DNA from: Richelia sp. SL_2_1
GTDB lineage: Bacteria > Cyanobacteriota > Cyanobacteriia > Cyanobacteriales > Nostocaceae
Direction of reading: 5' to 3'
DNA: 40,253 nt
Assembly: GCA_012033205.1 (NCBI GenBank)
Contig: JAAUSO010000051.1
Coordinates: 1-40,253 of the forward strand
Below are positions 1,762 through 40,253 of this stretch, one piece after another. The position numbers and the translations under genes are program-made. The notes beneath the pieces are model-generated. The model had not been told where the DNA came from, made no database searches, and worked only from the letters and a program-made list of their open reading frames with translations. Within the stretch, counting starts at the first letter, position 1. Every line of letters begins with the position of its first letter.

Positions 1762-1787
1762 AATTACGAATTACGAATTACGAATTA
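1762..1787. repeat. Heptamer array AATTACG at the chelatase stop
   Basis: Three AATTACG units and a partial fourth (AATTA). On the minus strand it reads TAATTCG repeatedly, and its first TAA (1785-1787) is the stop codon of the chelatase gene. Confidence 0.8.
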
Positions 1788-3084: not shown

Positions 3085-3127
3085 TCCTCTTCCTCTCTTT
3101 CTCTGCGTTCTCCGCGCCTCTGCGGTT
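3085..3127 (-). repeat. Dispersed GCAGAGGCGCGGAGAACGC repeat inside the chelatase gene
   Basis: On the coding (minus) strand this reads as a purine-rich repeat common in Nostocales intergenic DNA. A related core, CTGCGTTCTCTGCG on the plus strand, lies between two HEP genes near 25502. Here it is in frame and encodes a highly charged linker (QRRGERREREEEE) between AYFGKEEEEN and the conserved STDELSNLLRGLNG block. Confidence 0.65.
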
Positions 3128-3959: not shown

Positions 3960-3986
3960 TACAGACGCGAACCCTTGCGTCTCTAC
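3960..3986 (-). repeat. Palindromic dispersed repeat (TAGAGACGC...GCGTCTGTA) at the frameshift
   Basis: Perfect 6-bp stem AGACGC (3963-3968) with GCGTCT (3977-3982), an 8-base loop, and outer TA/TA pairs separated by a mismatch. The same arms, including the same G/G mismatch on the minus strand, occur in the intergenic hairpin at 8569-8597, so these are two copies of one family. It lies immediately downstream of the A6 run where the chelatase reading frame breaks. Confidence 0.8.
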
Positions 3987-5461
3987 ATTTTTTGGGGGAA
4001 TAATTCATCGGCTTCTTTGACTAAACGAATTAATTCTTCCCCATCTGCGGGTAATTCTCCCACGTTATAACCTTGCTCTTTTAAAGCCTGGAGAAACTTC
4101 AATAAACTGCGGGGAACATTCAATAAAGCAGCAGTTCCCGTTGCACCGTATCCCGGTGGAAAGCCGTAGAGAATAACAGCAATTTTGCGTTCCGATATCG
4201 GTTTTTTTCGTAAATTTACCCAACTTTTTACCCTACCAATTAATCGCTGTACCCTTTCGGGAACCAAGTAAATATCTTCTCCTACCAAACCACCCAAAGC
4301 AACTGTATCGATCGCCCCATCAAGTTCCGGTAATGCATATAAAACAACACTTTGCAAACCGCCAATACCTTGACGAGTCCAAGAGTGAATATCTTGAATT
4401 AACAGCGGTGCGGCAACAATATAAGGTACATTTTTAGCAGCGAGAATGGTTTTTGCAACATCAACTTGTCTTCCTGCTTCCATAGAACCCGCAGGCCCTC
4501 CTACCAAAGGAAATCCAATAGTAGAAACAATTGCATCAACTTGAACTGCTTCTGGGGAAAGAGAAACAGTTTGCAAATTACCTTGTTGACGTTGTTGGGT
4601 TTCGTAATCTGTAGTCATCCAATCACGAACAGCAACGTGTGCTTCTACACCGTTGATAAATATGGGTAAGGGAATTAAACCAGCTTTTTCAAAGTGTTTA
4701 ATTAATTGAGGAATATAAGGTTGTTTAGTAATAACGTGTTTTCTATACAAAAGAATTCCAATTACTGGACTATAAATATGTTCAATTCTTTTTTTGTACC
4801 AATCTAAATAAGCTTTCGGTGATTCAAAATAGCCATTGTAATCAGGATGAAGCAATCCCATATTCGGAGTTTCTAAAGGTGGGGGAATATCACCAACTTT
4901 TAAATCTAAATATTTTTCTGCTAAAGTCCAAAGTAGTGCAGCGACATTTTCTGAACCACCAGCATTCCAATAACCGTAAATAATCAACCAGTTGCGTAAA
5001 TCTTGAACCTTTTGTACTGGTATATATTTTAATAATTTGGGACCAATTTTTAAAAAACTAATATAACCAGCAAGTTTATCTTCTTCCCTTCCATTGCTGA
5101 ATTTATCTAAGATAAATTTTACTGGTTTAGGCATTCCTTTGGGTTTGTCACCAATTGCAAATGCACCAATTTGATTACAACTCATCAACTCCAAAGCTGA
5201 CTCGAACACCAAACGAATGGGAATCTTGCTGACTCGTTGCTTTAACCATACAACTTGGTCGTAATCGAATAGCAAACTACCAAAAAACACATCAGCATCT
5301 TTAAGTGCTGTTTCCACTGTACTTGGTTTGCTGTTGATATCGCGATCGCAAAATATGCGAATATCCAAATCGGAACAGCGAGATACAGCCATATCAGCAG
5401 CTTTGCGGTACAAACCAGCATTGAAAGATTCAAATCCTGCAATCAAGACAATGCGCTTCAT

Positions 5462-5931
5462 ATCCTAAACCCATAAAATGCTTCATTCTACAACTTTAGC
5501 GAAGTTCAAGACTCAAGCAACCTCGATTACTCGGTTTTCAGTAAAAGATTACTGATTAAAAAAGCTTCCAGAGGCGCTCGTACACAGAAGGAAGAGATTA
5601 GGAGAGAAAAGTACTTATAAATTGGGTGGGGAATAATAACTGTTTAAAAATAGAGATATTAATGCTTATGTCTATGAAAATAGATTTAAATTCAATATTT
5701 ATCTATTCTCAAATTAGGTTATTGAAAAACGATTTTATACTTGTTTATGTAAAATAAATAATTAATAATATAGTTGATTCTTAAATTAATCATTAATATC
5801 TTAAAAATAAAAACATGAATACAAATATTATTTTCATAATTAATTATTGTTGAATATAATGTTATCTAATTATCTTGACAATGACTATATTGAATGTTTT
5901 AAAAGTAATATTTAATGCTTGAGGTAAGTCA
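5462..5931. other. Divergent intergenic region, AT-rich
   Basis: Lies between the divergent chelatase and amidase genes and must carry both promoters. TTGACA at 5875-5880 is a possible -35 for the amidase, but the -10 (TTTAAA or TAAAAG around 5898-5905) is poor. A ribosome binding site GAGG at 5921-5924 is well placed, 7 bases before the amidase ATG. I saw no cobalamin-riboswitch-like conserved boxes. No ORF is supported. Confidence 0.45.
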
Positions 5932-6872
5932 ATGAGATTTGGAATTGATATTGGACACAATTCTCCTCCAGACACAGGAGCAAATGGAATCAAATTTGAA
6001 GATAATTTGACTTTGGATGTCGGCAATAGAGTTATGGGTAAACTGAAAGATTTGGGACACCAAGTTATAGATTGTAAACCAGCGAAATCTAATAGTGTGG
6101 GAAATTCCTTGCAACAAAGATGCTCGCGAGCTAATGCAAGTAAAGTTGATATTTTTGTTTCAATACATTTTAATGCGTTCAATGGATTTGCTAACGGTAC
6201 AGAAATATTTGCTATCAGCGATACAAGTAAAAAAATTGCTAAACCAGTATTAGATGAAATTCTGCAAATGGGGTTTTTTAATCGCGGAATTAAAAATGGT
6301 TCTCATCTATACGTTTTGAGAAATACAAATATGTCTGGAATTTTAATTGAATGTTGCTTTATTGATTCAGCAAAAGATATGAAATTGTTTGATTCGGAAG
6401 CCATGGCAAATGCGATTGTCAAAGGATTAACGGGCAAATTACCTACTGCTCCGGTTATCTCGGTACCTGATGAATCATTAAATCCTGATGTATCTTTATT
6501 GAGATTGCAAAAAGCTTTAAATCGTCTCAGAATCACCGACTCAAGGGTAATCCTTTAGATGAAGATAATATAATGGGTCTAGCGACTGTATCTGCAATCA
6601 CAAAATTTCAAGAAATAGTTGGTATTCAACAAACAGGAATCGCAGGTAATACGACATGGGATGCGATTAATCAAATTTTAGCAAAACCAGTAATTAGGAA
6701 GAACCATGCCGCCGGTATCGTCATGAAATATTTACAATACCGTTTAGGTGCTGAACCTGATGGTATATATGGTTCTGACACAGAAGCTGCAATTAAGCAA
6801 TTTCAACGAGCAAATGGTTTGTCTGCTGATGGAATTATCGGAAATATCACTTGGCAGAAATTGATAGGGTAA
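5932..6872 (+). pseudogene. N-acetylmuramoyl-L-alanine amidase with two peptidoglycan-binding domains, frameshifted
   Basis: Cleaves the bond between MurNAc and L-alanine in peptidoglycan. The N-terminal Amidase_3 domain (about residues 1-170) shows the zinc ligands: His9 in DIGHN, Glu23, His in VSIHFNAF and the catalytic Glu in ILIECCFID. Two PG_binding_1 repeats follow. The first (LLRLQKALNRLRITD) runs into a stop at 6558, but the next frame continues it exactly (KGNPLDEDNIMGLATVSAITKFQ) and carries the second repeat (DGIYGSDTEAAIKQFQ) to 6872. The break is at TCAAGGG (6541-6547); one more A would restore a protein of about 312 aa. There is no signal peptide, so export is unclear. Strong ribosome site GAGG at 5921. 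The surviving first ORF keeps a complete catalytic domain. Confidence 0.85.
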
Positions 6873-7035
6873 TTTTAAATAATCAGGGGTTAATAGTTAG
6901 GAGTTAAAGTTTTATATTTTGTAAATCCAGCTAAATAATATTGACAGTAATAATATGCCTTTTACTCCATTTATAAATTAAATTATATAATTTAAAAGGA
7001 CTATTTATAATTGTTTTTATACTTATAAATAATTC

Positions 7036-7112
7036 TAACTATTAACTCTTAACTCTTAACTCCTAACTCCCAACTCCTAACTCCTAACTCCTAACTCCTA
7101 ACTCCTAACTCC
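7036..7112. repeat. Heptamer array, TAACTCC
   Basis: Eleven consecutive 7-bp units (TAACTAT, two TAACTCT, then mostly TAACTCC with one CAACTCC). This is the reverse complement of the GGAGTTA array at the left end. Its inner edge overlaps the end of the Wzy-like gene and provides its TAG stop (7105-7107). An isolated GTTAGGAGTTA lies near 6896. Confidence 0.95.
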
Positions 7113-8535
7113 CAAATTTATTCTGCTCGTGTACATGATAATTATGTCCGGCTAAAGCAATACCCAAAAAGCCCCATAACACCATACCAGCAACACCTAA
7201 CATCCCACTGTTACCAGCTAAAGTTGATATCATACCGATACCAATACCCCGCGATGCAGCCATAAAAGAATCAAAACGACATTCATTAAATTGAAATATT
7301 TGAAAAACCAACAGTAGCATTCCACCTAAATAAAACACTGCTCCAAACCAACCTAAAGTAAAAAATGTATCGAGGAATCCACTATCAATTACAATTGGTT
7401 CTAAGATACCTTTTTCATTTACAACAAAAGTATTTCCGACTCCATTACCTAAACCGTTGGTAAGGGCTTGATTCAAACCTTCTTCGTAAATTTTTTGTCT
7501 AACTTGAGCGCTATCGTCTTTTTCCAGATTAGAAAAAGTTTCAAAACGTTGTGAAATTGTTTCCGAAAATGGCTCAATCGTTGTTAAAGGTACAACAAAA
7601 AGTACCATCAACAAAATAACTACAACCAAGCGCATTTGAGAGCGTGCTTTAAGAGAACCAAATAAAGTTACTAATCCTACTAACCAAGCACCCCATAATG
7701 TCCGTACTGATGTGAGCAAAAATGCCAAATAACCGGCAGCCGTCGCAGGAATATTCAGATAGTGAGCGTGAGTCAATAACAATAATAAACCAGCCATCAT
7801 TACAGCCCCAAAAGGTGCAGGAGAAGCCATTGTACTCCATACCCGCAATCCTAAAGGTTCTGGATCTCCCATACTTTTCAACTCGGTTTCTATCAGCCAA
7901 AATACATCCCATTCAGGTGCTACTATAAACTGCCAAACACCATAAGCACCCATCACCAGTACACCCCAAGTGAAGGTGCGCTGAATCACTTGACGATACT
8001 GAGGATATTCTCGCCATTTGATAAACAAAAAGAAAGCAAACACAATCGGGGGTAGCCAATCGAAAATTCCCCTAACCGCAGTCATTGGGCTAGTTTTAAT
8101 TAGTCCGATTAAAGAACCGTAAAACACACCTAAAAATGCCAAAATAAAAGGTAAACCACCTTGACTTAAGGACTTGGGAAGATATTTTAAAAAGGTATGT
8201 AAAGTAAATAAAGTGATTAAATATGGTGAAATCAGCATCAGACGACTGGGATCGAAACCGCTTTTTAAATCAACTAAGCGAGTTACAAATGGTGTAACGA
8301 ACCACATCCACCATGTAAACCCGATATAGAGGATAGGATATCGCAGATACAAAAACAGACCTACTGCAAGGGAGAGTGCTATATAGCTATTGCGAAGAAT
8401 AGCTGTAGCCCCTGAAAGAATACATAGTGCTGTGAACAATACCAATGCAAGTATTGCTGTCCAACCCAAAGGCGGCTCTAAACCAAAGGAAAATCCTTTT
8501 TTAGGAGTGTTATTTTGCGTTTGTATATAATTCAC
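7105..8535 (-). CDS. O-antigen ligase/Wzy-like polysaccharide polymerase of the HEP cluster
   Basis: A 476-aa integral membrane protein with about ten to twelve hydrophobic segments spread over the whole length. It has a long extra-membrane loop around residues 320-385 (ETISQRFETF ... GLGNGVGNTF), the arrangement of O-antigen ligase/polymerase (Wzy, WaaL) families. The presumed role is joining lipid-linked repeat units of heterocyst envelope polysaccharide at the membrane. It is the last gene of the cluster, in the position where I recall alr2841 in PCC 7120. It starts with GTG (8535), with no clear ribosome site. The last two sense codons and the stop (GGG AGT TAG) are heptamer-repeat sequence, so the C-terminus may have been set by the repeat. 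Confidence 0.85.
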   Translation of the reverse strand: MNYIQTQNNTPKKGFSFGLEPPLGWTAILALVLFTALCILSGATAILRNSYIALSLAVGLFLYLRYPILYIGFTWWMWFVTPFVTRLVDLKSGFDPSRLMLISPYLITLFTLHTFLKYLPKSLSQGGLPFILAFLGVFYGSLIGLIKTSPMTAVRGIFDWLPPIVFAFFLFIKWREYPQYRQVIQRTFTWGVLVMGAYGVWQFIVAPEWDVFWLIETELKSMGDPEPLGLRVWSTMASPAPFGAVMMAGLLLLLTHAHYLNIPATAAGYLAFLLTSVRTLWGAWLVGLVTLFGSLKARSQMRLVVVILLMVLFVVPLTTIEPFSETISQRFETFSNLEKDDSAQVRQKIYEEGLNQALTNGLGNGVGNTFVVNEKGILEPIVIDSGFLDTFFTLGWFGAVFYLGGMLLLVFQIFQFNECRFDSFMAASRGIGIGMISTLAGNSGMLGVAGMVLWGFLGIALAGHNYHVHEQNKFGS

Positions 8536-8544
8536 TGTTAAAAA

Positions 8545-8618
8545 GTTAGGAGTTAGGAGTTAGGAATTGTAGAGACGTAGCAATGCTACGTCTGTACGGG
8601 AGTTAGGAATTAGGAGTT
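8545..8618. repeat. GTTAGGA heptamers interrupted by a hairpin repeat
   Basis: Three GTTAGGA units (8545-8565), then the hairpin GTAGAGACGTAGC-AAT-GCTACGTCTGTAC at 8569-8597 (13-bp stem with one G/G mismatch), then more degenerate units (GTTAGGAATTAGGAGTTA). The hairpin appears to have been inserted into a heptamer array. The stop codon of the upstream glycosyltransferase (TAA, 8610-8612 on the minus strand) is inside the array. Confidence 0.9.
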
Positions 8619-9572
8619 ATAATTTATTAATGCTTTATTAATAATAGATTTAGAGGCTTGCCAAGTTTGTAAACCTTGCCAACGACCGCGTAAAGATGCA
8701 AATAACTTTTTACCTGCTAATAAACCTTGAGAAGGCACAAATCGTAACCACTGCATAAAACCCACCGCTTCTCTAGTGCCTACTGTTATAGCCCAGAATA
8801 AAAATGCTAGTTTTTGCAATGGTGAAAAGTATTCTAATAAAGCTAAAGTTTCATTATGTACAGCATTTGCAAAAGCGATTTGATTGAAACTTTGACGTTG
8901 ATCTTCGTCAAATCGTTTCGCAGGATAATGATTAACTGCTATTTTGGGATCGTAAATTAATTTCCAACCAGCCCGTTTTAATTTTAGAGAAAAAGCTAAT
9001 TCAAAGTGAACTTGAGCGCCGGTACCTCGCATTCTTTCGTCAAAATGCCATCCCTCAATCGCAGCCCGTCGAAAGCTCATGTTTACTCCTTTGAGTACAT
9101 CAACTTCCCGTGCTTCACCACTACCTATATGATGATTACCAATAACTTTACCGAACCAACGTACTTGTCCAACTGTTACCGAATTTCCATCTTCTAAGTC
9201 AGTACCATGATATACCCAATCGCGTCCGCCTACACCACCGACACGTTCATCTGCTAGATAATAACTTTCAATACGTGCTAACCAATCAGTATGAGGGGCT
9301 GCATCATCATCCGTAAAAGCCACAATATCAGTTGTTGCTGTATCAAGACCAGTATTCATGGCTGCAACTACCCCGCTAACGCTGACCTTTGCAGTGCGTA
9401 ATGGTAAATTTTTCGGTTCAAATGCTGCAAGGAATGACCAAGTTTCAGTATCCGTATCGCGAACTACTACTATCACCTCATCAGCCGATCGAGTTTGATT
9501 TTGCAGTGCTTGCAAACAGCGAGCCAAGTCTTGGCTACGTCGGTAAGTTGGTACGATAACCGCGATCGACAT
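8610..9572 (-). CDS. Family 2 glycosyltransferase
   Basis: 320 aa. GT-A fold glycosyltransferase: start IAVIVPTYRRSQDLARCL, nucleotide/metal site AFTDDDAAPHTDWL (about residues 87-100), and acceptor-side block RMRGTGAQVHFELAFSLKLKRAG. It transfers a sugar from a nucleotide donor, presumably to the growing HEP repeat unit on the cytoplasmic face; the sugar cannot be told. A C-terminal hydrophobic stretch (LQKLAFLFWAITVG) suggests membrane association. ATG at 9572 follows the stop of the GT4 gene by two bases, so translation is probably coupled; GAGGAG lies about 12 bases upstream, inside that gene. The stop TAA is supplied by the repeat array. Confidence 0.9.
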   Translation of the reverse strand: MSIAVIVPTYRRSQDLARCLQALQNQTRSADEVIVVVRDTDTETWSFLAAFEPKNLPLRTAKVSVSGVVAAMNTGLDTATTDIVAFTDDDAAPHTDWLARIESYYLADERVGGVGGRDWVYHGTDLEDGNSVTVGQVRWFGKVIGNHHIGSGEAREVDVLKGVNMSFRRAAIEGWHFDERMRGTGAQVHFELAFSLKLKRAGWKLIYDPKIAVNHYPAKRFDEDQRQSFNQIAFANAVHNETLALLEYFSPLQKLAFLFWAITVGTREAVGFMQWLRFVPSQGLLAGKKLFASLRGRWQGLQTWQASKSIINKALINYNS

Positions 9573-9574
9573 GA

Positions 9575-10723
9575 CTAATTGATCTCCTCAAATAAATCTA
9601 CATATTGTTGTGCCATATTTTTCCAGGTATGTTGGATGGCGATCGCTCTTGCCGTTTGACCCATTTTAATTCTTAAATCTGGATTGGTGCTTAATTTTTG
9701 CATCGCTTCTGCTAAAATTTTGCTATCGTCTGGGTCTGGTAAAACGATTCCGGCTTCGGGAGTGACTAAGAAAGCGGCTCCGGTACATTTAGCGGTAATT
9801 ATTGGTATTCCTGTAGCCATTGCTTCAGTAATTACTAAACCAAAAGGTTCGTACCGTGAAGGAAACACAAAGAAATCCACAACTTTCATAATCGAAGGGA
9901 CATCACGTCGGAATCCTAAAAAATGCACTCGTTCACTTAATCCTAAAGATGCTGCTAGCTGCGGATAAGGGCTACCATCGGTAACACCTACCACTGCTAA
10001 ATGCAAATCGGGAACTTGCACCAAAGCCCGTAGCACTGTGTCTAAATTTTTCCTGGGTAGTCTAATATCCCCAGCAAACATTGCCAAGGGAACTTTGGTG
10101 GGTAAATTCCATGTTTCACGATTACCACCGCTACCGGGTGAAAATTCTTCGATATCTACCCCATTACTAATGACTCGAATAGCATCTTGAGGTACGCCAA
10201 TTTCTCTTAAATCTTCAGCAACTTGATCGGAAACTGCAACTACTATTTTTGTGTTATCGAATGCTGATTTTTCCCAACGGGCGTTGAGTGTGGTATACAA
10301 CCACTGATAAAAATTATATATAAAAAGGCGTGGATTGAGGATATTGTTTTTTGCCGCAGGTGTAGCTTGTAAAGTAGAAAACTTCAGCCAGGAATTATGT
10401 ACAAAATGTACTGCATTCACATCTGAATTTGCCCAGGTAATAGCACCATTTGTTTTAATTAAATCGAGTTGATTGCCGTGTTTTTTTAACCACTTATTGC
10501 TTGCAAAAGCAAACTTAATGTTCCTAATTAATTCTGTTGGTAAACCTGCCACAGAAATCGGAACCCAATCAACTTGATGATGTTTTTCTAACTCTGGATC
10601 AATCTTACTTGCTAACACAGTCAAATGATGACCGCGCTTAATTGCTTCCCAAACAACTTCATAATTGACTCTTCCTTGACCATCACCTTTGATTAAACTG
10701 TGAGTAATAATGCAAAGCTTCAC
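9575..10723 (-). CDS. Family 4 glycosyltransferase
   Basis: 382 aa, GT-B fold. The N-terminal domain (MKLCIITHSLIKGDGQGRVNYEV) has the glycine-rich acceptor loop. The C-terminal domain has the donor-binding E-x7-E motif in EPFGLVITEAMATG and a preceding VDFFVFPSRY. A retaining transferase, presumably adding one sugar to the HEP repeat unit. The start is GTG at 10723. It lies 34 bp or so after the preceding GT2 and 2 bp before the next, within a five-gene run of transferases that must be one operon. The position corresponds to the fourth transferase after hepA in the PCC 7120 HEP cluster as I recall it. Confidence 0.9.
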   Translation of the reverse strand: MKLCIITHSLIKGDGQGRVNYEVVWEAIKRGHHLTVLASKIDPELEKHHQVDWVPISVAGLPTELIRNIKFAFASNKWLKKHGNQLDLIKTNGAITWANSDVNAVHFVHNSWLKFSTLQATPAAKNNILNPRLFIYNFYQWLYTTLNARWEKSAFDNTKIVVAVSDQVAEDLREIGVPQDAIRVISNGVDIEEFSPGSGGNRETWNLPTKVPLAMFAGDIRLPRKNLDTVLRALVQVPDLHLAVVGVTDGSPYPQLAASLGLSERVHFLGFRRDVPSIMKVVDFFVFPSRYEPFGLVITEAMATGIPIITAKCTGAAFLVTPEAGIVLPDPDDSKILAEAMQKLSTNPDLRIKMGQTARAIAIQHTWKNMAQQYVDLFEEIN

Positions 10724-10757
10724 GATATCAGCCTGCTGTAAAAATCAGGTACGAATT

Positions 10758-11669
10758 TCAAGAAATAATCACTGAAGAAGCAGATTCTGGTTGAGGAATA
10801 TTTTCCTGCTGCCATAATAGTTGAATGCGAGAACGACGAATAATTTCTGGCCAAGCTTGAATTGCTCCTCTTTTTAGTAAATACCCGCTCATATGAACAA
10901 AATATATAGTTAAAAAGGCTAGTAACTTAATCGGATTTGGGAATAGATTTTTATAGCGTTTAATGCCTACATAAAGTCTAGCAGCTTCTATGTGTAATTC
11001 ATAATTACTAATACCACTAATACCCGGTGCGTCAAGCACACTTTCAGTACTTTTAACATTTACTTGTAACTCTAGACAAGAAATTATTTTGTAACCGTAC
11101 TTAATAGCTCGCAAGCAAAGTTCTGCATCTTCATAACCGAAATATATATCTTCATCCCACTGTTCTTGAACAAAAAACTGTCTGGGAAATAATGCTGCAT
11201 GAATTACGACTGTTTCGGGAGTCTCTTCGGTGGCACAAAAATATCCTCGAAAAGTTAATTTTGATGGTAGTAATTTCTCTCCCTTAGTACCTGTACTAAC
11301 ACCCGTAATAATAGTATACTTTCTTTGCTCGTTTGACATTTGAGAATATCTCTCGATTGCATTAGCAATAAAGTCTGGTTCTACACAAATATCATCATCA
11401 ACAAAAGCCACAAAATCTGTTTCTAACACAGAAGTTGCATTGACTGCGTTATTACGGTTAGCACAAACACCGCGCTTGGGACCTGTAATATAAGTTGTTC
11501 CTGGATATTGTTGTACAACTTCTAAATTTGTTTGCTGAACTTCAATATCTTGCGAGTCATCAGAAACAATAACAGTATGGGGTTTAGCTGTAGAATTCCA
11601 CAAAGCTTTTAAACAATTATCAAGCTCTAGGGAACGATTTCTAGTTGTAATACAAGCTGCAATTCGCAT
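10758..11669 (-). CDS. Family 2 glycosyltransferase
   Basis: About 303 aa, GT-A. N-terminus MRIAACITTRNRSLELDNCL, metal site AFVDDDICVEPDF near residue 95, and FGYEDAELCLRAIKYG as the acceptor-binding block. The frame is open upstream to a TTG at 11696, but ATG at 11669 gives the typical N-terminus and has AGAAGG 11 bases upstream, so I take it as the start. Donor and acceptor unknown; HEP assembly is inferred from the neighbours. A hydrophobic stretch near the C-terminus (IKLLAFLTIYFVHMSG) suggests membrane attachment. Confidence 0.88.
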   Translation of the reverse strand: MRIAACITTRNRSLELDNCLKALWNSTAKPHTVIVSDDSQDIEVQQTNLEVVQQYPGTTYITGPKRGVCANRNNAVNATSVLETDFVAFVDDDICVEPDFIANAIERYSQMSNEQRKYTIITGVSTGTKGEKLLPSKLTFRGYFCATEETPETVVIHAALFPRQFFVQEQWDEDIYFGYEDAELCLRAIKYGYKIISCLELQVNVKSTESVLDAPGISGISNYELHIEAARLYVGIKRYKNLFPNPIKLLAFLTIYFVHMSGYLLKRGAIQAWPEIIRRSRIQLLWQQENIPQPESASSVIIS

Positions 11670-11735
11670 TTGTGTAAAACCTTCTTTGATTTTCAAATAA
11701 TATTGATTACGAAATATATGTGCTGTCAGTTACAA

Positions 11736-12707: not shown

Positions 12708-12845
12708 CTCTTTAAATCTCAATACTTGTTTTATATCCGCCCGATTTTACCACTTTTTGTAGCAGACTAATCGTTCTATTCCAGAATAATATACGACTTG
12801 CTGACCTAATTACTTTGTAAGATTTACTATATTTTATTGCTGTTT

Positions 12846-13748
12846 TCAGTTGAAGCATACCTCCGGAGATATCGCCTTTTTAATTAAAAAATCAGCAGAT
12901 TCTAAAGCTAAAAAAGCACAATTTTGTTTCGCAGTTCTAGCAAGTTTATGATTATTCTCTTGAGAAAAATAAGAATTCAAGATAGTTTCTACAGTATTAT
13001 AATTTTCCTGAATGAAAATATTACTTTTGGCGTTAACATTGTTTGCAGAATTTAAATGTACTCGCCACATAGCCAAAGGTTCTGCTTCAAACCACATTGG
13101 ATAATGACTAAAAATTCTCACCCACATCTCCCAATCTCCACTGATACCACAGCGTCGGTCAAATCCTCCCAGATTTTCATAAACTTCACGCCGCACCACA
13201 GCCAGAGAAGGTACCGAAATACAACAAAGTTCGGCAATTCTATGCAACCAACTTTTAGGCAATATACCGCTAGTCGGCATCTCAAAATCTGATAAACCTT
13301 GCCATTGATTGTATTGATCGATCGCAATACTCCGGCAAAAAGCAGCACCTAGTTCTGGATGTTTTTCAAACGGTTGTGCCATCTTTTGATAAAATCCCTC
13401 TCTGACACCATCGTCACTGCACATTAAATGAATCAACTTCCCCCTAGATAATTCAAAACAGGTTTGAAAATTATTCATCATACCGACATTACTATTTTGA
13501 CGGTAAAATTCTATACGGTCTGCACCTAATTCTTTGACAACCGCTTCTGGGTTATCTTCCGTAGAGTGATTATCAACAACTACGATTTGCATCTGATCCA
13601 CTCCAGGGTCTTGTGCCAAAATACTCTTGAGTGTGTACCGTAAATATTCTGCACAATTATAAGTAGGAATCATTACAGACCACAGAGGACGTTTTACTTC
13701 TGGGGAAACTGGCAAAATGCTCGGACGATAAGGATTTAACTGACTCAT
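12846..13748 (-). CDS. Family 2 glycosyltransferase, first gene of the transferase operon
   Basis: 300 aa. GT-A: WSVMIPTYNCAEYLRYTL, IVVVDNHSTEDNPEAV, metal site LIHLMCSDDGVREGF, and CGISGDWEMWVRIFSHY as the acceptor block (the ED/DW motif). It is the first gene after the hepA terminator, with about 525 bp upstream of its ATG, so the promoter for the five transferases and the Wzy-like gene should be there. A GTA-N8-TAC palindrome lies about 155 bp upstream. Sugar specificity unknown. Confidence 0.88.
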   Translation of the reverse strand: MSQLNPYRPSILPVSPEVKRPLWSVMIPTYNCAEYLRYTLKSILAQDPGVDQMQIVVVDNHSTEDNPEAVVKELGADRIEFYRQNSNVGMMNNFQTCFELSRGKLIHLMCSDDGVREGFYQKMAQPFEKHPELGAAFCRSIAIDQYNQWQGLSDFEMPTSGILPKSWLHRIAELCCISVPSLAVVRREVYENLGGFDRRCGISGDWEMWVRIFSHYPMWFEAEPLAMWRVHLNSANNVNAKSNIFIQENYNTVETILNSYFSQENNHKLARTAKQNCAFLALESADFLIKKAISPEVCFN

Positions 13749-14274: not shown

Positions 14275-14301
14275 AAAAAAAGGCTTGCCATTAGCAAACC
14301 C
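14275..14301 (-). terminator. Rho-independent terminator after hepA
   Basis: On the minus strand: stem GGTTTGC, loop TAATG, stem GCAAGCC (7 bp with one G-U pair), followed at once by seven T. It lies about 65 bp after the hepA stop, exactly where a terminator should be. Confidence 0.85.
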
Positions 14302-14366
14302 TATGATTAATATTTTGACTACTTATTAAGTATAATTTTTGTAAATTAACCAGCCATTTCTACTCT

Positions 14367-16208
14367 TTAATTTGTTTGACCGACTTCATTTTGTATTTGA
14401 TGATATTTCCATAACTTGCCACGTTGTTGTAGTAAGTCTTGGTATTTTCCTTGCTCGACAATATTTCCTGCTTCTAATACAACTACCTTATCGGCTTTAG
14501 CAATTGTAGAAAGTCTATGAGCGATCGCAATCACTGTTCTACCAACAGAAAGCTTTTCCAAAGAATCTTGAATCAGCCGTTCTGATACAGAATCCAAAGC
14601 ACTGGTGGCTTCATCCAAAATCAAAATTTGGGGATCGCGAAGTAATGCACGTGCGATGGCGATTCGCTGTCTTTGTCCCCCGGATAATCGGACACCGCGA
14701 TCGCCAAGTTGAGTATCAAAACCTTCAGGCATATCTTCGATAAATTCTAATGCATTGGCAAGTCTAGCAGCTTCTTTGATTTCAGCTTCGGAAGCGCTGA
14801 GTGTACCGTAAGCAATATTATTCCAAACTGAAGTATTGAAAATAAATGTATCTTGACTGACAACAGCCATGTTTTTTCGCAGCGAGTAGATGTCAAAATC
14901 TTTTAAATCGACTCCATCAACAAAAATATGCCCTTCTGTTGGATCGTAAAATCGAGGAATCAAATCTGCAAGGGTGGTTTTTCCAGCACCAGATGCTCCT
15001 ACCAAAGCAGTTGTTTTTCCCTTTTCAATGGTCAGGGTAATATTTTGTAGCACTAAATTACTGGGTTCGTAACCAAAATCAACAGATACTATGTCAATAG
15101 AACGATTCAACTGCTTAAATTCAGTATCGCCATTTTGGAAGTACTCTTGGTCATCGCTTTCAAGTAGTTTTGTGACATTATCTAAGGAACCATTTAAGGT
15201 ACTCATAAATGCTACCGTTCCATTGATGTCTTGAATACTGGGTACAAGACGAGTCATCACAAAGAAAAATGTTAATAAAGACTCAACTGGTAAGGTAAAT
15301 TTCGCAAAGGAAAGAATAATTAAACCAATCAGCGCGGTAGTTGCAATTGCTTCAGCTATTGGTTTTACCAAAGTCCAAGCTCTTGCAACTTTTATTGAAG
15401 CATGAAGTAATTTACCGCTAACGCTATAAAAACGCTCCCGTTCAAAATCTTGCGTACCTGATGCTTGAACTGTGCGGATACCATTAATAAACTCTGTGGC
15501 TGTTGAATGAAAAAGACCGTTAGCATTAGAAATTCCAAAGCTTGATTCTCGAACACGAGCATTAAGAGTTGAAAGTCCTACTCCTAAAAGGGTAAACAGC
15601 AACACTGAAACTATCGAGAGTTCCCATGATATCAAAAACATGGAGATAAAATAAACAGAAACTGCCATTCCCCTAGTAATCAGGAAAGCAGCACCACCAA
15701 AACCTTGCTTTAATCTCTCGATTTCAGTGGTTATCGTGTTTATTAGTTCACCGGAACGAGTTTTAACAAAATAGCTTAAGGGTAATGCTTGTAAATGTTC
15801 AAACATTCGTTTACGCAAACGGTCTGCTAGATGTAATTGTGCCGATTCGGTGTAGATTGCACCAAAGTAATTGAATGTAGAACGCAGCCAAGTACTTAAT
15901 AAAATTAATATTGATATTCTATATAAACGACTTGTTGCCGAAGTTTTGACTCCTAATATCCAGATATCAAACCAAGCAATACCCGTCTGAATCGGTTCTG
16001 CGTTGCTCCCGGCTGTGAGACGTTGTAAAAAAGTTAACAAAAAACCAATAGTAAAACCTTCAAAAGCCGCTGCTAGTATAGAAAACAATAAGGCAAAAAT
16101 AGTAATCCGACGAAAATGTTTAAATTCTCGTAATATTAAATAGTTATCCTTCCAGAAGTTAGTTGCTTTGAGTAAATTGCTCAATGGCTGGTATATTTTT
16201 CTCTGCAT
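14367..16208 (-). CDS. hepA: ABC exporter HepA, heterocyst envelope polysaccharide
   Basis: Half-size ABC exporter with a fused membrane domain (residues about 35-330, six hydrophobic segments) and ATPase domain. Walker A GASGAGKTT, signature LSGGQRQR, Walker B ILILDEATSALD and switch His in IAIAHRLS are all intact. In PCC 7120 HepA is required to deposit the envelope polysaccharide. Identity rests on the ABC type plus position between hepC and a run of transferases. The frame is open to a TTG at 16253, but ATG at 16208 gives about 613 aa, close to the roughly 607 aa I recall for HepA, and avoids a leader (SNSKKKIKLY) coded by an A10 run. Neither start has a clear ribosome site. A terminator follows. 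Confidence 0.9.
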   Translation of the reverse strand: MQRKIYQPLSNLLKATNFWKDNYLILREFKHFRRITIFALLFSILAAAFEGFTIGFLLTFLQRLTAGSNAEPIQTGIAWFDIWILGVKTSATSRLYRISILILLSTWLRSTFNYFGAIYTESAQLHLADRLRKRMFEHLQALPLSYFVKTRSGELINTITTEIERLKQGFGGAAFLITRGMAVSVYFISMFLISWELSIVSVLLFTLLGVGLSTLNARVRESSFGISNANGLFHSTATEFINGIRTVQASGTQDFERERFYSVSGKLLHASIKVARAWTLVKPIAEAIATTALIGLIILSFAKFTLPVESLLTFFFVMTRLVPSIQDINGTVAFMSTLNGSLDNVTKLLESDDQEYFQNGDTEFKQLNRSIDIVSVDFGYEPSNLVLQNITLTIEKGKTTALVGASGAGKTTLADLIPRFYDPTEGHIFVDGVDLKDFDIYSLRKNMAVVSQDTFIFNTSVWNNIAYGTLSASEAEIKEAARLANALEFIEDMPEGFDTQLGDRGVRLSGGQRQRIAIARALLRDPQILILDEATSALDSVSERLIQDSLEKLSVGRTVIAIAHRLSTIAKADKVVVLEAGNIVEQGKYQDLLQQRGKLWKYHQIQNEVGQTN

Positions 16209-16253
16209 ATATAATTTTATTTTTTTTTTACTGTTAGAGTAGTGGCTCGTCAA

Positions 16254-16604
16254 GGATTGATTCTTTTTTAACAGGATAGCAGTGTAAGATCAACAATCAT
16301 CCCTTTTACTACATAGTTAAGCAAAAATATTTAGCTATTTTTGAACAGGAATGAAATTGCGATATTTTCTGAATTTTTCTTGCAACTTGTGTAGTCGCGA
16401 GCTAGTATCCCTGTTACCTCCTCTAACTAAATAATTTATTTTGCACGACTATTTACCAGCATTTTTAAATTATTCTTCCAGGATGCAATGCCAACACGAA
16501 AGCTGAAATATAGTTTTTACAAGTGTTGGCAGTGATGCAGAAATGTTGAATTGCCAAGGTAAAGTATGAATCAGATTTATTAACATTTATAGACAACACA
16601 TCAA
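16254..16604. other. hepA upstream region
   Basis: About 350 bp between hepC and hepA, AT-rich with no ORF. In PCC 7120 hepA is developmentally regulated from sequences 5' of the gene, and this stretch is the matching position. I recognise no consensus NtcA site or clear -10/-35 here. Confidence 0.45.
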
Positions 16605-17377
16605 TTATGATACTTGGCTATCTAGATGTAAGACGCTTGATTCAGTCTCTACTTCCCACGAACTGATGATTCCTGGTAGATGATTCAGTTGTTTTTGTGC
16701 CTCCGGAGTTAACTTAATCGCATCTTCCAAAGTCCAGCAACGAGAACCAAATAAGCCTATTTCACCTCGAAGCACATTTAACAACTGTGGTAAGTTTTCT
16801 AAACCGGATTTATGCATCCACTTACCTATTTGTGTCGTATTTTGGTTGATTGCTTCTCTATTCGCAGATTTTGTCCGATATTTGATTATTTTGAATAATT
16901 TACCTCTTTCACCAACGTGCCAAGTACGTTCAAATATTGGTGCTTGAGTATCTACTTTCATGAATAAAGCTAATAGTAACATCAGCGGACTCAATACTAG
17001 TAGAAAAATACTGGCGATCGCCCACTCAATTAGCCGTTTGAAACCCCACAAAATACACTATTTGGCTTGGGCTGCTTGTTGTCGGCACTTATAGACAAAT
17101 ATATTGGTTTGGAAATGGACGCACAAGCATCTGCCCACAGTCTGACTTTTTCTTCACCCAATTTGGGATCTATGCGAACTAACTTAACGGCAGAATGTTT
17201 TAAGCATTCCTTCAAAGATTCATGATGATCTAATGAAGCCATATAAGGCTGCTTGATTGTACCCAAAGATTTAACTAATAATTGATTACGTCGCCATTGA
17301 AGGGTGCAGTAGCTCGAACTCTTAGATTCAAATCCACTGGGGTTATTGTATAAACTTGGAGCTATTGATATTGTCAT
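16605..17377 (-). pseudogene. hepC: HepC, sugar (priming) transferase, frameshifted
   Basis: Bacterial sugar-transferase family protein of the HEP cluster, thought to place the first sugar on the lipid carrier. The N-terminal frame (17377-17030) carries the HepC-like leader (YCTLQWRRNQLLVKSLGTIKQPYM ... LVRIDPKLGEEKVRLWADAC) and reaches NKQPKPNSVF. The next frame, open from just upstream of 17051, continues WGFKRLIEWAIASIFLLVLSPL (membrane helix) and the catalytic region VGERGKLFKIIKYRT ... GLENLPQLLNVLRGE ... GSRCWTLEDA to 16605. One missing base in a T4 (17050-17053) or G4 (17044-17047) run explains the split; the joined protein would be about 257 aa, a normal size for HepC. Because hepC is needed for heterocyst maturation in PCC 7120, a sequence error is a serious possibility. 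About 980 bp of non-coding DNA precedes it. Confidence 0.86.
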
Positions 17378-18356
17378 ATGAATTTTAATTTGTGTGGTGA
17401 TAGACAGCTTGTTTTATATACAACGCCGAAAAAATGCCTATTATCCGTAATTGTTGGCTTCACTTCCATCAAAAATAAATGATGTGGGCAATTAATAAAT
17501 AAAAAAGTGCTATTGCGGTAATTACATAACTTTTATCAATTCGGTAGAAAACCTACCTTCACAAAAGATACGAGACTACCGATAAATAGACTAAATCTTG
17601 CAATTACCTTTTTTTTTGCAACGGTATCCAATAAACAGGATATAGGAAACTATATGAATAATCCTATCTAAAATAAATTCTTTATTTGTTCTTTAAACAG
17701 TGACTGCTTTATTAGGCTTATTATCAAGGTACGATGAATTAAATTTGTGTAACACTTAATAACTATACTATGTTCAATTTTTAAGTAATTGTAACATACA
17801 TATTTTCACAACTTAATAAAGTTTTTTGATTTGCAGAGCTTTACCTAAAAAAAACAAATATACTAAACAATTCACGTAAAATTCATATATGCTTCGTTTG
17901 AACTACTGTCATTTCGTTTCACCTCAAATACCCTTTGAGATTATCTTAAGTAATACATATGACTTCCATAACCAAGTCTAATTGACAATATAAAAGGAAT
18001 ACGATTCAATTAAAAGTTTGCCTGAATAAATCAAATATTATTAATTATCTACTGTCACACCCACTTCTAAGAGTTGATAAGTCGAATTCTTAAAAGTTAT
18101 CAGTTATCAGTCACGTTTATATTTGGGAAAGTTTAAGTTGATATCTGTATTAAGGTGGTCGGCGTTGGTGACGCTTCTCAGTCCCCTAGCATACGCCCCC
18201 GTGTTTACTGTATGACGCTATCGCGTCACGAGTAAAGCTAACACTGATTACTGTTCACTGATTTTAAATCAGTATCTGTAAACACCCTGATAGAAATATA
18301 AACCCGACTATCTTAGATTGCTCTGTGGATTCCGTAGGGATACTCAGATTAAATAT
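17378..18356. other. Long hepC upstream region
   Basis: 979 bp without a supported gene. The first half is AT-rich and includes a perfect inverted repeat GGTAG-AAAAC-CTACC (17543-17557). The last part (about 18085-18270) is repeat debris: AGTTATCAGTTATCAGT, CTGATTACTGTTCACTGATT and GTGACGC inverted repeats. The promoter of hepC is expected here; no consensus site is certain. Confidence 0.5.
18168..18229. repeat. Nested inverted repeats of GTGACGC
   Basis: GTGACGC at 18168-18174, TGACGC at 18213-18218 and GCGTCAC at 18223-18229. The last two form a tight hairpin TGACGC-TATC-GCGTCA; the first and last can pair over 48 bases, so two alternative folds compete for the same arm. Confidence 0.7.
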
Positions 18357-20615
18357 CTACTCTTCCACGACTCCTTTGAGTGCAAGTTGCTGTTGTTTAA
18401 CATGGGGAACATAACTAAAACTAGAGTTTGATACTCCATTTGCGACAACCCCAAGTAAATTCAACTTACCAAGCATTGCAGTCGCTTGTGTAACTTGGGT
18501 ACGAGTTACCTTGCCAATACTTGCCACCATGATTACGCCGCGACAAGTTGATGCTGTGAGTAAAGCATCCACCAAACCAAGTACTGAGGAGCCATCCAAG
18601 ATGACTAAATCGTAGTTTTCTTCAAATGCACTCATTAATTCTTCCATACGAGGAGAGCTTAATAGATTCGCTGGGTCGTCGGGAATTGGTCCTGCGGTTA
18701 AGATATCTATATAAGATGAGCCTGAAGATTGAAGAGTTATCTGGTTAGGTAGAGCTACATCGCTTGTTAACAAAGTAGAAAGACCTTGTTCGTTGGGAAG
18801 ATTGAGATTTTTATGTACGCTAGGGTCGCGTAAATTGGCATCAATTAATAATACCTTTTTATGCAAGCGAGCCGCACTCATAGCTAAACCTAAAGCTAAA
18901 GCTGATTTACCTTCATCGGGCAAGGCTGAGGTTATCATCAAAGACTTGAAGGTAGAAACAGAATTGAGCAATTCGATATTTTTATAGATTAGGTCGAGGG
19001 ATTCCCAGCGTGGTGGTGATTGTAACACCTGAACCGTCCAAGGGGCAAGAACTTCTGGCTTGCCAAAGGGTAATCTAAACACCGGCTCTTTGGCTTTTGC
19101 AGAAGGTAATTTCGGAGTTGTCCCTAACAAGGGGATGGCAATTTGTTTTTCTAATTCAGCAGTAGTCCGAACTGCATCATCTCCGGCTTCACGAGCAAAA
19201 GCTGCGATCCCTCCTAACATCAAACCAACTACTCCACCCAACATCAGGTTTTGTTGCAGATTTGGACCTAAGTAGTTTCCTTCTTGGGGTTCTTCCACTA
19301 CTTCCCAGTTAAATCCACCTTTGTCCAGTTCTTGTTCTAATTCTTGCTCTACTTTTAAAAGCTGCTGCAAGCGTTGTCGAGTCAATTCTACCTGGGGCTG
19401 TAAGCGGTTATACTGAGCTAATAGGAGAGGAAATTTTCTCAATTCTTGGTTTAGCTGTTCTTCTCTTTGTGCTAAACTTTGGTCGCGAGCAGCTAAAGCA
19501 AACAGATTTGTTTGGGTTTCTGCTAAATTACTAGCAAGGTTGAGGTCTGTTTGAGAAAGCTGTCCTTGGTTAAGTATTTCACCGGAATCGATGGCGCTTG
19601 CATCCGTATTACTCCCTCCTAAAGCCCGTCCAACTTCTTGCTGTAGTAACTGTTTTTGTTCTACAAGCTGTTCTTTGAGCTTTAAAACGTCCGGATGACT
19701 TTCTGTAAACCGCAAATTGGCTTGGGCGATCGCTAGTTCGGTTTTTTGGATTTCGTTGAGCAAGGATTGGTAGCGAGTTGACTGACTCAAACGAGAAGAA
19801 ACCAGTGCATTTTGAGGAGTTTGTTTTAATTGTTGTTGTAAAGAGTTGAGCCGAGCTTGAGCTTCTTTATATTGATTACGAGTTGTGGTTCGTTCTTGCT
19901 GAATATTATTTAAAGCATCTTCATAAGCTTTAGCTTGTGTAGAAGGATCTGTTAAATTCTCAGTTTTGCGAAACCTTAATAACTGCGCTTCAGCTTTATT
20001 TAACTCGTCAGCGACATTTTTTTTCTGTTCTCTGACAACTCTCAGACCATTTCCTAAACGCTTTCTCTGCTGCTCTTTGTTGTAATCAAGATAAACTTGC
20101 CGTATAGCTTCTAATACTTTTTGAGTCTTTGCTGGGTCTTGACCTGTATACTCGATGCGGAATATTTTAGTTGCAGTATTATCTTCTTTTGACCTTAGTT
20201 GCTGTAAGGATAAAGCACTTTTGATATTATTTACGGTGATCTCCGGATATTCAGGCTTTAGTTTATCAACTGCTTCTTTTATAAGTGAAGAACTACCCAT
20301 TAAATTCAACTGAGTAGCGGTATCTATCTTCACATTCGAGTCCGTAAACTGATTTTTGCCTATTTCCGTTCCTTCTGCTTTTGCTTGATAATTTGGCTCT
20401 ACTAGCAGTTCCATGGAACTCTTGTATGTAGGCGGCGTTTTTTTATATACATAATAACCCGCTCCTACGGAAGCCAGAAATACGATCAAAAACCAAGGAA
20501 ATCGCCGGATTAATACCGCAAACAGTTGTCCGTAACCCGGTTCTGTATCAGCAGCTGGATTTACATGGGGACTTAGACTGGCTTGATTCACTTTATTAAT
20601 TTCCTCAGCTAACAA
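18357..20615 (-). CDS. Wzc-like polysaccharide copolymerase with BY-kinase domain
   Basis: 752 aa inner-membrane protein controlling polysaccharide chain length and export. Wzz domain with a membrane helix near residues 36-55 (FPWFLIVFLASVGAGYYVY), a long periplasmic coiled coil (about 190-440), a second helix near 455-475 (LMLGGVVGLMLGGIAAF), then a cytoplasmic P-loop domain: Walker A SALPDEGKSA, Walker A' VLLIDANLRDP, Walker B LVILDGSSVLG. No tyrosine cluster is present at the C-terminus (a single Tyr in SSFSYVPHV), so autophosphorylation of a Tyr tail is doubtful. TTG at 20615 overlaps the previous gene by 7 bases; GTG at 20591, with GAGGA upstream, is an alternative start. It occupies the position I recall for alr2833. 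Confidence 0.9.
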   Translation of the reverse strand: MLAEEINKVNQASLSPHVNPAADTEPGYGQLFAVLIRRFPWFLIVFLASVGAGYYVYKKTPPTYKSSMELLVEPNYQAKAEGTEIGKNQFTDSNVKIDTATQLNLMGSSSLIKEAVDKLKPEYPEITVNNIKSALSLQQLRSKEDNTATKIFRIEYTGQDPAKTQKVLEAIRQVYLDYNKEQQRKRLGNGLRVVREQKKNVADELNKAEAQLLRFRKTENLTDPSTQAKAYEDALNNIQQERTTTRNQYKEAQARLNSLQQQLKQTPQNALVSSRLSQSTRYQSLLNEIQKTELAIAQANLRFTESHPDVLKLKEQLVEQKQLLQQEVGRALGGSNTDASAIDSGEILNQGQLSQTDLNLASNLAETQTNLFALAARDQSLAQREEQLNQELRKFPLLLAQYNRLQPQVELTRQRLQQLLKVEQELEQELDKGGFNWEVVEEPQEGNYLGPNLQQNLMLGGVVGLMLGGIAAFAREAGDDAVRTTAELEKQIAIPLLGTTPKLPSAKAKEPVFRLPFGKPEVLAPWTVQVLQSPPRWESLDLIYKNIELLNSVSTFKSLMITSALPDEGKSALALGLAMSAARLHKKVLLIDANLRDPSVHKNLNLPNEQGLSTLLTSDVALPNQITLQSSGSSYIDILTAGPIPDDPANLLSSPRMEELMSAFEENYDLVILDGSSVLGLVDALLTASTCRGVIMVASIGKVTRTQVTQATAMLGKLNLLGVVANGVSNSSFSYVPHVKQQQLALKGVVEE

Positions 20616-21718
20616 ATCAGAGACTGCGATCGCTGTATTTGACTAGTTTGGTCGATAACTTGTTCGACTTTACTAAAAAATGCCTCTTCCGAAAAATTGG
20701 CTACAGCATGATTGCGGATGTTATCGTAATTCCAATAGATTTCCCTGGCTTCTAATAATGCGGTTTGTAGAGAATCAGGTGTTTGCCTTTTGAAAAAGAC
20801 TCCTGTTTTACCAGGTACCTGAGTGTCTAAAACTCCTCCGGCTCCGAAAGCTACTACTGGTGTTCCACTAGCATTTGCTTCTACCGGAACTAATCCGTAA
20901 TCTTCTAAGGCTGCAACTATTACTGATTTTGCCTTAGAAAACAATTGGGTACGTTCTAAATCTGATACGTGACCCACAAATTCGATATTTTTCAAAGCTT
21001 TTGATTGTAAGCGTTCTTTTTCTGGACCGTCACCTGATATTTTCAGATGCCATCCCAGCCAGTTAAAAGCTTCTACTATTATATCAAGTCGTTTGTAACC
21101 GATCATTCTTGCAGATGCAAGAAAATAATCGTCTTTGGAATCTGAATAAACAAATTTACTCGTATCAATCGGGTAGTTAATAACTATTGCTTTTTTACCA
21201 TAAGTACTTTTGATCCGTCGTGCAACAACACTAGAATTCGCAATGTACAGGTCTGGTTCTTGTGCATAAGTTAAGTCTACATTTCTCATTAACTGAAAAA
21301 CTTTTTCAATTAATGGAGAAAAATACTGATAGTCAGCATATTCTCTTAAATAAGTTTCTGTATCCCATAGAAACCGAGTCACATTATGACAAAAGCAAAT
21401 GTGCTGTGCTTTGGGGTTTTTTCGTACAGCTTTGGCAAAGCTAGTACTACTACTGATAATTAAATCATATTCTTGTAAATCTAAAGCCCGAAAAGCAGGA
21501 AAATACAAAGGAGCCATGAGGCGAAAGTATTTTGCAGCACCAGGAATATTTTGTAAATAAGTCGTGTTGACTATGCGTTCACCTAGATCAATAGTTTTTT
21601 GAGCATCGTATAAAGATGTAAAAATATCAGCTTCAGGAAAACGTTTACAAAGCAATTCAAAGACTCGTTCTGCGCCACCTTTTTGGGTTAAATAATCATG
21701 GACTAAAGCAACTTTCAT
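20609..21718 (-). CDS. Family 4 glycosyltransferase
   Basis: 369 aa from ATG 21718 (MKVALVHDYLTQKGGAERVF). The frame is open to 21751, but AGGGAA just upstream of 21718 and the canonical N-terminus settle the start. GT-B fold: N-terminal acceptor loop with GGAERV, donor-binding ARMIGYKRLDIIVEAF, ISGDGPEKERL, and the E-x7-E motif in EDYGLVPVEANASG. It resembles WbaZ-type mannosyltransferases, though the sugar cannot be known from this. It overlaps the Wzc-like gene by a few bases. An intergenic gap of about 155 bp separates it from the deacetylase gene upstream. Confidence 0.9.
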   Translation of the reverse strand: MKVALVHDYLTQKGGAERVFELLCKRFPEADIFTSLYDAQKTIDLGERIVNTTYLQNIPGAAKYFRLMAPLYFPAFRALDLQEYDLIISSSTSFAKAVRKNPKAQHICFCHNVTRFLWDTETYLREYADYQYFSPLIEKVFQLMRNVDLTYAQEPDLYIANSSVVARRIKSTYGKKAIVINYPIDTSKFVYSDSKDDYFLASARMIGYKRLDIIVEAFNWLGWHLKISGDGPEKERLQSKALKNIEFVGHVSDLERTQLFSKAKSVIVAALEDYGLVPVEANASGTPVVAFGAGGVLDTQVPGKTGVFFKRQTPDSLQTALLEAREIYWNYDNIRNHAVANFSEEAFFSKVEQVIDQTSQIQRSQSLIC

Positions 21719-21873
21719 GTTGTTCCCTATAAAATTACACTTCGACCGCAAGCAAGAAAAAAGTTAATTAAAAAAGTGTTTTTACATTTAAATCCTGAAC
21801 AATTATTAATTAATTATTACTGTTTTTTGTTTATTTAATAAATAATTTTTACTACTAATGGAAATAGATAAAT

Positions 21874-22635
21874 TTAATCTTTAAAAAATATTTCATGACT
21901 GGAAAACATTGCTTGCTTCAAGCTAGAAGGCAAATTTGGAGTTTGTGATTTGTAAACTGCAATTGCTTGGTGTTTTGTTTCTTTAAAATTGCCGATAAAT
22001 AATCGGTAAGCTTGACTTTTTTTCGGCAAATATTTATGATCAGATAAGGGGCTGCGCCACAACATCCAAATCGGATATTGTAAAAGTTCTATCGGCATTT
22101 TAGAAGCTGTAATCGCACTGTCAACTAAAGAGTAAGTTGCTTCATGATCTGGATGTCCATCGTGATGATGAGGAACGTAAACTTCTTGCGGTGCAAAAGA
22201 TTGAATAATTTCAACTAATTTATTAATTAATAAGTTGCGTTGTTCGGCAGATAATTGAGCCAGGCTTCCATCGGCTTCACCGAGGAATTGCGTTTGCGAT
22301 GGTTCAATTCCCAAAATATTTAAAGCGCTTGATGCTTCTTGTTGACGATATTCGATAATATTTTCTGGTTCAATCCAATTTGGTCTACCATAACGTCCAT
22401 CTGTGAGGAACACTACTTTGACTGGTATTCCTTGGGAACGCTTAAGGGCGATCGCTCCTCCACAACCGATAGTTTCGTCATCCTGGTGGGGAGAAAAAAC
22501 TATGGCTCGCTTGTTACTCACCTCAAGAGGTTTGCTTTTAAAACGTAAAAGCCAATTGTAATGTACATTGTAATTAGTATCTCTGACGGCGGCTCCTAAA
22601 CTAATTCGCAATTGATTTAAAGATACTTTAAACAT
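21874..22635 (-). CDS. PIG-L/LmbE family deacetylase
   Basis: 253 aa. Zinc-dependent N-deacetylase family: metal-binding motif SPHQDDETIGCGG (the P-H-x-D-D-E signature) around residues 48-60 and the third ligand region PHHHDGHPDHEAT. Such enzymes remove acetyl from GlcNAc-type sugars on lipid or small-molecule carriers. In this place it may deacetylate an amino sugar of the HEP repeat unit; that is inference. Its ATG overlaps the end of the frameshifted GT gene by 8 bases, so the two are probably translationally coupled. Confidence 0.9.
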   Translation of the reverse strand: MFKVSLNQLRISLGAAVRDTNYNVHYNWLLRFKSKPLEVSNKRAIVFSPHQDDETIGCGGAIALKRSQGIPVKVVFLTDGRYGRPNWIEPENIIEYRQQEASSALNILGIEPSQTQFLGEADGSLAQLSAEQRNLLINKLVEIIQSFAPQEVYVPHHHDGHPDHEATYSLVDSAITASKMPIELLQYPIWMLWRSPLSDHKYLPKKSQAYRLFIGNFKETKHQAIAVYKSQTPNLPSSLKQAMFSSHEIFFKD

Positions 22636-23835
22636 ATGTTAATAAATCTTGTTTTATACCTTGTTGTAACATAATTTTTTCAATCGTTTCTCGATAAACT
22701 TGAGCAAATCTATCTCTAGTATGATTTGTTCGGACAAATTGCCAAGATGTCCTCGCCATTTGTTGGAGTTGCGATGGATTTAATTTAGAAATATTTTGAA
22801 TACTTTGTTTAATTTCTTCTACAGTATTTTCTTTGAGAATAACTCCATAATCATCGCTAACATCTACACTTGATTCATAACTAACAATCGGAATCAGTCC
22901 TGTATGCATACAATTAATAACGCATCCGCCACCACCTTCGGAGCATGTTGGATAAACAATTCCTAGACAACTATTAACAATGTCTAAAAACTTTTGAGAT
23001 GTCACATCAACCCACCCAATTGTATGAATATTCGGAGTTTGATAAAGTTCTTGATAAAAAGCTGTTTTAAAATCGTCTTCTTTCTCAATTGGTCCGCAAA
23101 TAGTTAAATTATAATCTGGCATTTGGGAAAAGGCATCTAAAAGTAAGTCTAATCCTTTGTGAACCAAACCACCGCTACCAAACCAAAGAAAGTTTTTACG
23201 GCAAGCTGCAAAATCTTTATCTTCAGGAAAAGGATAAAGTTTGGGAGCAGAAATAGGAACTCGATACAGCGGTTTATTTGCGTATTTAAATGTGTTCAGA
23301 GTAAACTCGTTACCAAGAACTGTCGCGCAATCGGCGTATTCGATGGCTTGATTTGGTTGCTCGAATCTTTTCGGACTTAAAGTAATGCCGCGTCGTTGCT
23401 GTAATCTTAATAATCTATTTGCTTCAGCTGCATTGTGGAATAAAATATGCGCTGTATCGGAATGAAATATTTTGACACAATCTTGATTCAGAAACGGTAC
23501 ACATCTTTGTAAGTTCCAACGTGTTTCAATAAAAAAGGCATAATTTTTTTTGGAATAAATACATCGTTATAAAACCATATAACATCAACGTTGTAGCCGA
23601 AGTCTAAAAAAGTTTTAGCCATTTGCAAGCATTCCCAATGTTGAGTATGGGAAGTTGGAACGGGTTCACCTGGGTTCAAAGTAAATGGATTGACAACGTA
23701 AGAAATAAGTACGTTTCCAATTGCTGGTTTATCTGGTTGAATTGAAACCATACGCCGTCTTTCGAGACGACCTTGGATTTTATCTGCGACTAGAGTAATA
23801 TTATCTGCTACGCGCTTAACTAAATTGGTTTGCAT
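22628..23835 (-). pseudogene. Glycosyltransferase (GT4-like), frameshifted in an A8 run
   Basis: Starts at ATG 23835 with AGGGG five bases upstream. The first frame (MQTNLVKRVADNITLVADK ... VDVIWFYNDVFIPKK) stops near 23488. In the next frame the protein continues without a stop: NYAFFIETRWNLQRCV, then IFHSDTAHILFHNAAEANRL, GITLSPKRFEQPNQAIEYAD, FLWFGSGGLVHKGLDLLLDAF and GPIEKEDD to the stop at 22628. The break is in an A8 run (23544-23551); nine A would give one protein of about 402 aa. GT-B style C-terminal domain with EGGGGCVINCMHTGLIPIVS, lacking a textbook E-x7-E. An A8 run is long enough for RNA-polymerase slippage, so some full-length product could be made even if the sequence is right. 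Confidence 0.85.
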
Positions 23836-40243: not shown

Positions 40244-40253
40244 TGGTAATCAA

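Follow-up and report, generated by a model that had tools for sequence, protein, structure and literature searches.

Single-base deficits throughout the coding DNA of a Richelia assembly are best explained by errors of the deposited consensus

We found that genes lacking exactly one base are scattered evenly over the sampled loci of the deposited assembly of Richelia sp. SL_2_1 (7.55 Mb, 359 contigs), and we consider it very likely that these deficits are consensus errors and not biology. The analysis started from one stretch of 40,253 nucleotides (contig 69 of the assembly, hereafter the window), which was compared with two relatives, G001 and G002, whose gene order matches it over almost its whole length (approximately 89-96% identity per aligned block). 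The assembly consensus would appear to drop single bases, mostly inside short A/T runs and at a rate of about 0.13 per kb where coding DNA is conserved. In the living organism the affected genes are very probably intact. Since our assessment rests on comparison with the sequences of relatives, the cause of the errors is one that we infer rather than see directly; it is presumably technical, i.e. an under-polished long-read or flow-based consensus.

Broken genes in the window

Three-way alignment of the window, G001 and G002, combined with frame tracking, bore out the claim of a first-pass annotation that four genes (chelatase, amidase, hepC and a GT4-type glycosyltransferase) are each one base out of frame when set against close syntenic relatives. 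That list was right for these four but incomplete, as it overlooked a fifth gene, encoding a family-2 glycosyltransferase, with a lesion near 12876. The five genes, named on the intact G001 proteins, are as follows.

1785..5461, minus strand: BchH/CobN-type chelatase subunit gene, in two frames (pieces 1785-3947 and 3983-5461), lesion at 3987-3998
5932..6872, plus strand: N-acetylmuramoyl-L-alanine amidase with a peptidoglycan-binding domain, in two frames, lesion at 6544, one base fewer than G001 and G002
12712..13748, minus strand: family-2 glycosyltransferase whose C-terminal part is out of frame; lesion near 12876, one base fewer than G001 and G002, the low end of the gene being an estimate based on the G001 ORF
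16605..17377, minus strand: hepC (heterocyst glycosyltransferase HepC), in two frames, lesion at 17049, one base fewer than G001 and G002
22628..23835, minus strand: group-1 (GT4-type) glycosyltransferase, in two frames, lesion at 23544, one base fewer than G001 and G002

Within the window, no ORF of 60 aa or more spans the chelatase, amidase, hepC or GT4 site. Of the relatives that cover a given site, all have an open frame across it, and this holds for all five sites. The chelatase (TIGR02025) is a whole ORF of 1225-1267 aa in five of five covered relatives, and the amidase (Amidase_3 and PG_binding_1) is likewise open in 5/5. The frame is open in 6/6 relatives for the family-2 glycosyltransferase (Glycos_transf_2), in 7/7 for hepC (NF045514, HepC) and in 6/6 for the GT4 gene (Glycos_transf_1), the family matches in each case being those of an intact relative.

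The exact positions proposed earlier required some revision. The one-base offset of the chelatase gene stands; its site, given as a C5A6 run (3988-3998), lies in a variable stretch with a dispersed repeat (3987-3998). G001 and G002 differ from each other in this stretch by multiples of three only and share the same frame, and the site is among the lesions supported by both relatives. For hepC, where the deficit had been placed in either a T4 or a G4 run, the three-way alignment points to the A/T run and not to the G run. The GT4 gene does lack one base; simple shortening of its A8 run, as had been suggested, does not describe the site, because the nearest relative also differs in the base beside the run.

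A near-palindromic short dispersed repeat lies within the chelatase coding sequence beside the lesion (3957-3993), and parts of it match three other contigs. The genome contains three BchH-like loci including this one; the best-scoring locus is whole, and the third is also found in more than one frame here while being whole in G001 and G002. The relatives are themselves affected, if rarely: G002 has its own one-base deletion near the end of the ORF corresponding to window 22017 (window 21874-22635). Two intergenic stretches (8552-8600 and 40138-40253) contain short tandem-like units of the GAGTTAG and AAAGGTT types and differ in length among the three genomes.

Rate, sign and sequence context across the assembly

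The comparison was extended to every 18th contig, starting from contig 5 (first 20 kb or the whole contig; n = 20, 251.7 kb), with the counterpart places in G001 and G002 located by short tags. Aligned coding DNA was obtained from 16 of these 20 contigs; the remaining four (L118, L119, L122 and L130) gave none and lie outside the rates. Five further loci were picked via rpoC2, rplB, psaA (two loci) and atpA. The core genes were looked for by their TIGR accessions, and the searches gave back the expected names.

Measured against the two relatives, the 245.5 kb of coding DNA that could be aligned contain 33 one-base-short lesions, or 0.134 per kb. Five of these fall within the window (33.9 kb), 23 within the sampled contigs (167.4 kb) and the other five at the core-gene loci (44.2 kb). 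The 33 lesions are spread evenly over the 22 loci, with no overdispersion (chi2 = 12.4, 21 df, p = 0.93), and the core-gene loci (0.113 per kb) are affected at a rate similar to that of the sampled contigs (0.137 per kb). The window shows no excess (0.147 per kb, against 0.134 for the genome sample), and decay specific to this region was rejected, as the other loci show the same rate. Extrapolated to the whole assembly, this would mean several hundred affected genes.

Both relatives support 21 of the 33 lesions; nine could be tested against one relative only, and in the remaining three the other relative aligned without the event. Before the picked loci were added, comparison with the ORFs of G001 gave 25 frame changes in this genome and comparison with those of G002 gave 26; of these, 22 and 19, respectively, were minus one. 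At the same stage the relatives compared with each other gave 3 (G001 against G002 ORFs) and 2 (G002 against G001 ORFs). In the reverse direction, G001 and G002 show 8 and 12 frame changes, respectively, against the ORFs of this genome, several of which mirror lesions located here. Among the relatives compared, the lesions are private to this assembly.

When changes in coding DNA were polarised by both relatives (176.0 kb), a marked asymmetry emerged. One-base coding deletions and insertions number 19 and 1 in this genome, 3 and 2 in G001, and 2 and 0 in G002. Per coding substitution, the deletion rate here is 12.7 times that of the relatives combined (p = 1e-8), which together have 5 coding deletions on more than three times as many substitutions. 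Coding substitutions themselves are not raised in this genome (2,686, compared with 3,575 in G002 and 5,403 in G001). The sign bias of 19:1 also differs from the 24:19 seen in the non-coding DNA of the relatives (p = 0.0015). One-base deletions and insertions in non-coding DNA, counted as a control, amount to 16 and 4 here, 18 and 10 in G001, and 6 and 9 in G002, so that non-coding deletions show no clear excess over G001 and are more numerous than in G002. Changes of the opposite sign include the one polarised coding insertion and three plus-one differences from G002, at places where G001 gave no coverage.

The lesions fall mostly in short A/T runs (2 to 7 bases), and sometimes in G/C doublets or at single bases. 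Run lengths, read by eye from the sequence contexts with the chelatase site added, were one (3 lesions), two (4), three (9), four (3), five (7), six (3) and seven (3), with one case unclear. As runs of length three number 10,936 in the coding DNA of this genome, those of length five 1,142 and those of length seven 66, the chance of a lesion grows with run length, from about 0.1% through 0.6% to 5% for these three classes (again with lengths taken by eye). The first-pass annotation had held in-frame A8 runs against an artefact. This argument carries little weight, since only about one in 20 runs of seven and fewer than one in 100 runs of five are affected, and with so low a chance even in long runs most of these are expected to be in frame. 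The motif AATGG occurs close to 7 of 32 lesions, where 1.1 would be expected; having been picked out post hoc from 11 motifs tried, it may hint at the sequencing chemistry or at a modified base.

Core genes, selection and the competing readings

Genes broken outside the window include several of central function. rpoC2, present at one locus, is split into two frames; infA, also at one locus, is likewise in two frames; and the single rplR locus (ribosomal protein L18) has its first 24 profile positions out of frame. All three are whole in both G001 and G002, and all three are known to be essential. Of the remaining two lesions at the picked loci, one affects a psaA paralogue and the other an ORF that matched no family; no lesion was found at the atp locus. 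One of two gyrA loci, glgC and genes for a PBP1A-family protein, a radical SAM protein and a Rubisco accumulation factor are also broken. A second psaA-psaB pair, which we take to resemble far-red-light photosystem paralogues, is present in all three genomes (L178, G000:C196:17500-26500), its psaA copy here being one base short. The notion that only dispensable genes have been lost was rejected, given that core genes are affected.

Selection was assessed in 20 of the 27 broken ORFs of at least 100 aa, namely those with enough three-way coverage. In these 20 genes, nonsynonymous and synonymous changes number 134 and 316 here, 196 and 434 in G002, and 303 and 691 in G001; for 127 other genes the corresponding figures are 516 and 1371, 653 and 1652, and 1042 and 2635. 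No relaxation of selection was thus detected in the 20 broken genes, the ratio being no higher than on the branches of the relatives. Nor was any excess of stops or other sign of decay found in 57,244 codons, in which this genome has 4 stops of its own, one of which sits at a deletion site, compared with 7 in G002, five of which lie at the start of one ORF.

These data bear directly on the readings in which the deletions are real. A lineage that is losing dispensable polysaccharide and chelatase genes through small deletions would leave lesions private to itself, as observed; the first four genes are plausibly dispensable, and the chelatase has a whole BchH-like counterpart elsewhere in the genome. 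Such recent inactivation would nevertheless be accompanied by relaxed selection or further damage and would spare core single-copy genes. Neither pattern is seen, as rpoC2, infA and rplR are broken, core-gene loci are hit at the rate found elsewhere, nonsynonymous changes are not raised and private stops are few. We consider this explanation highly improbable. The same low standing is given to a mutator lineage, in which a defect of replication or repair produces minus-one slips. Single-base changes that become commoner in longer runs would fit it, but its sign bias would have to be far stronger than that of the relatives' non-coding DNA, substitutions show no rise on this branch, and single-locus core genes are broken without evident loss.

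It was also proposed that the genome carries recent genuine lesions or relies on slippage, which our results do not support. If the frameshifts were real and tolerated, transcriptional slippage or ribosomal frameshifting would restore the frame, as has been suggested for certain Blochmannia genes; in the portion of the Blochmannia vafer study used here (PMC3017870), single indels likewise occur in otherwise conserved genes, core genes among them. The Blochmannia cases described there lie in poly-A/T tracts, whereas the lesions reported here, judged by eye, are outside homopolymers in some cases and mostly in runs of 2-5 in the others, and do not fall in long poly-A/T tracts. They are also not common to the relatives: no conserved frame change was found in any covered relative at the five window sites. 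With several hundred genes in need of rescue by extrapolation, we regard this reading as having next to no probability. It is similarly very hard to believe that the deletions are real as a whole, i.e. that a free-living cyanobacterium has undergone a recent, strongly minus-one-biased, genome-wide error and keeps a working RNA polymerase, IF-1 and L18 through a frame-correcting mechanism. This would be extraordinary if true, and none of our findings favours it.

Consensus error, in contrast, predicts an even spread, one dominant sign, independence from gene importance and the absence of relaxed selection, whereas gene loss, mutator activity and slippage rescue do not predict this pattern of spread, sign and selection, and it is for this reason that we prefer it. 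The lesions form one dominant, run-length-dependent class of change, evenly distributed and occurring at a rate unrelated to the importance of the gene. The suspicion of a systematic sequencing or assembly artefact, voiced when the window was first annotated, is thereby strengthened by minus-one dominance, even spread, equally affected core-gene loci and the lack of relaxed selection or of a stop excess.

Consequences and known parallels

Claims of gene loss drawn from this assembly (e.g. of hepC or of the window copy of the chelatase) are unsafe, and the assembly needs to be flagged or polished again before anyone uses it, considering that several hundred genes are affected by extrapolation. 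In more general terms, sign bias, evenness, the rate in core genes and selection on the broken genes together separate artefact from decay without recourse to reads. A survey of frame transitions, in the part considered here, expects sequencing errors rather than genuine indels behind isolated BLASTp-validated cases (PMC3711429), and a review, in the section consulted, recommends PCR or inspection of the assembly as a check on any frameshift (PMC6742220).

Comparable situations have been described, and the following rests on portions of the reports cited. In Blochmannia (PMC3017870), as here, single indels affect otherwise intact genes including core genes; there, eight genes with poly-A/T tracts are concerned, some of the cases being common to species, whereas our lesions extend over the whole genome sample, lie in short runs and are confined to one assembly. 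The Ion Torrent genome of C. pseudotuberculosis 316, as presented in the material used, initially had more than 400 pseudogenes, of which 64 remained after curation (PMC3917457). Its hundreds of apparent pseudogenes arose from homopolymer miscalls, a similar outcome to ours, although the strong deletion bias and the several lesions at doublets or single bases set our case apart. According to the excerpts of the Kastor study (PMC12007338) on which we draw, the indel errors of a long-read assembly were for the most part one-base false deletions; they lay in runs of two to eight bases, chiefly of A or T, and a few occurred at non-repeated bases. Our case differs in that substitutions are not raised and in that the parallel is drawn from the consensus only and not from reads; the two are alike in their one-base deletions, short A/T runs and many genes fragmented without other damage.
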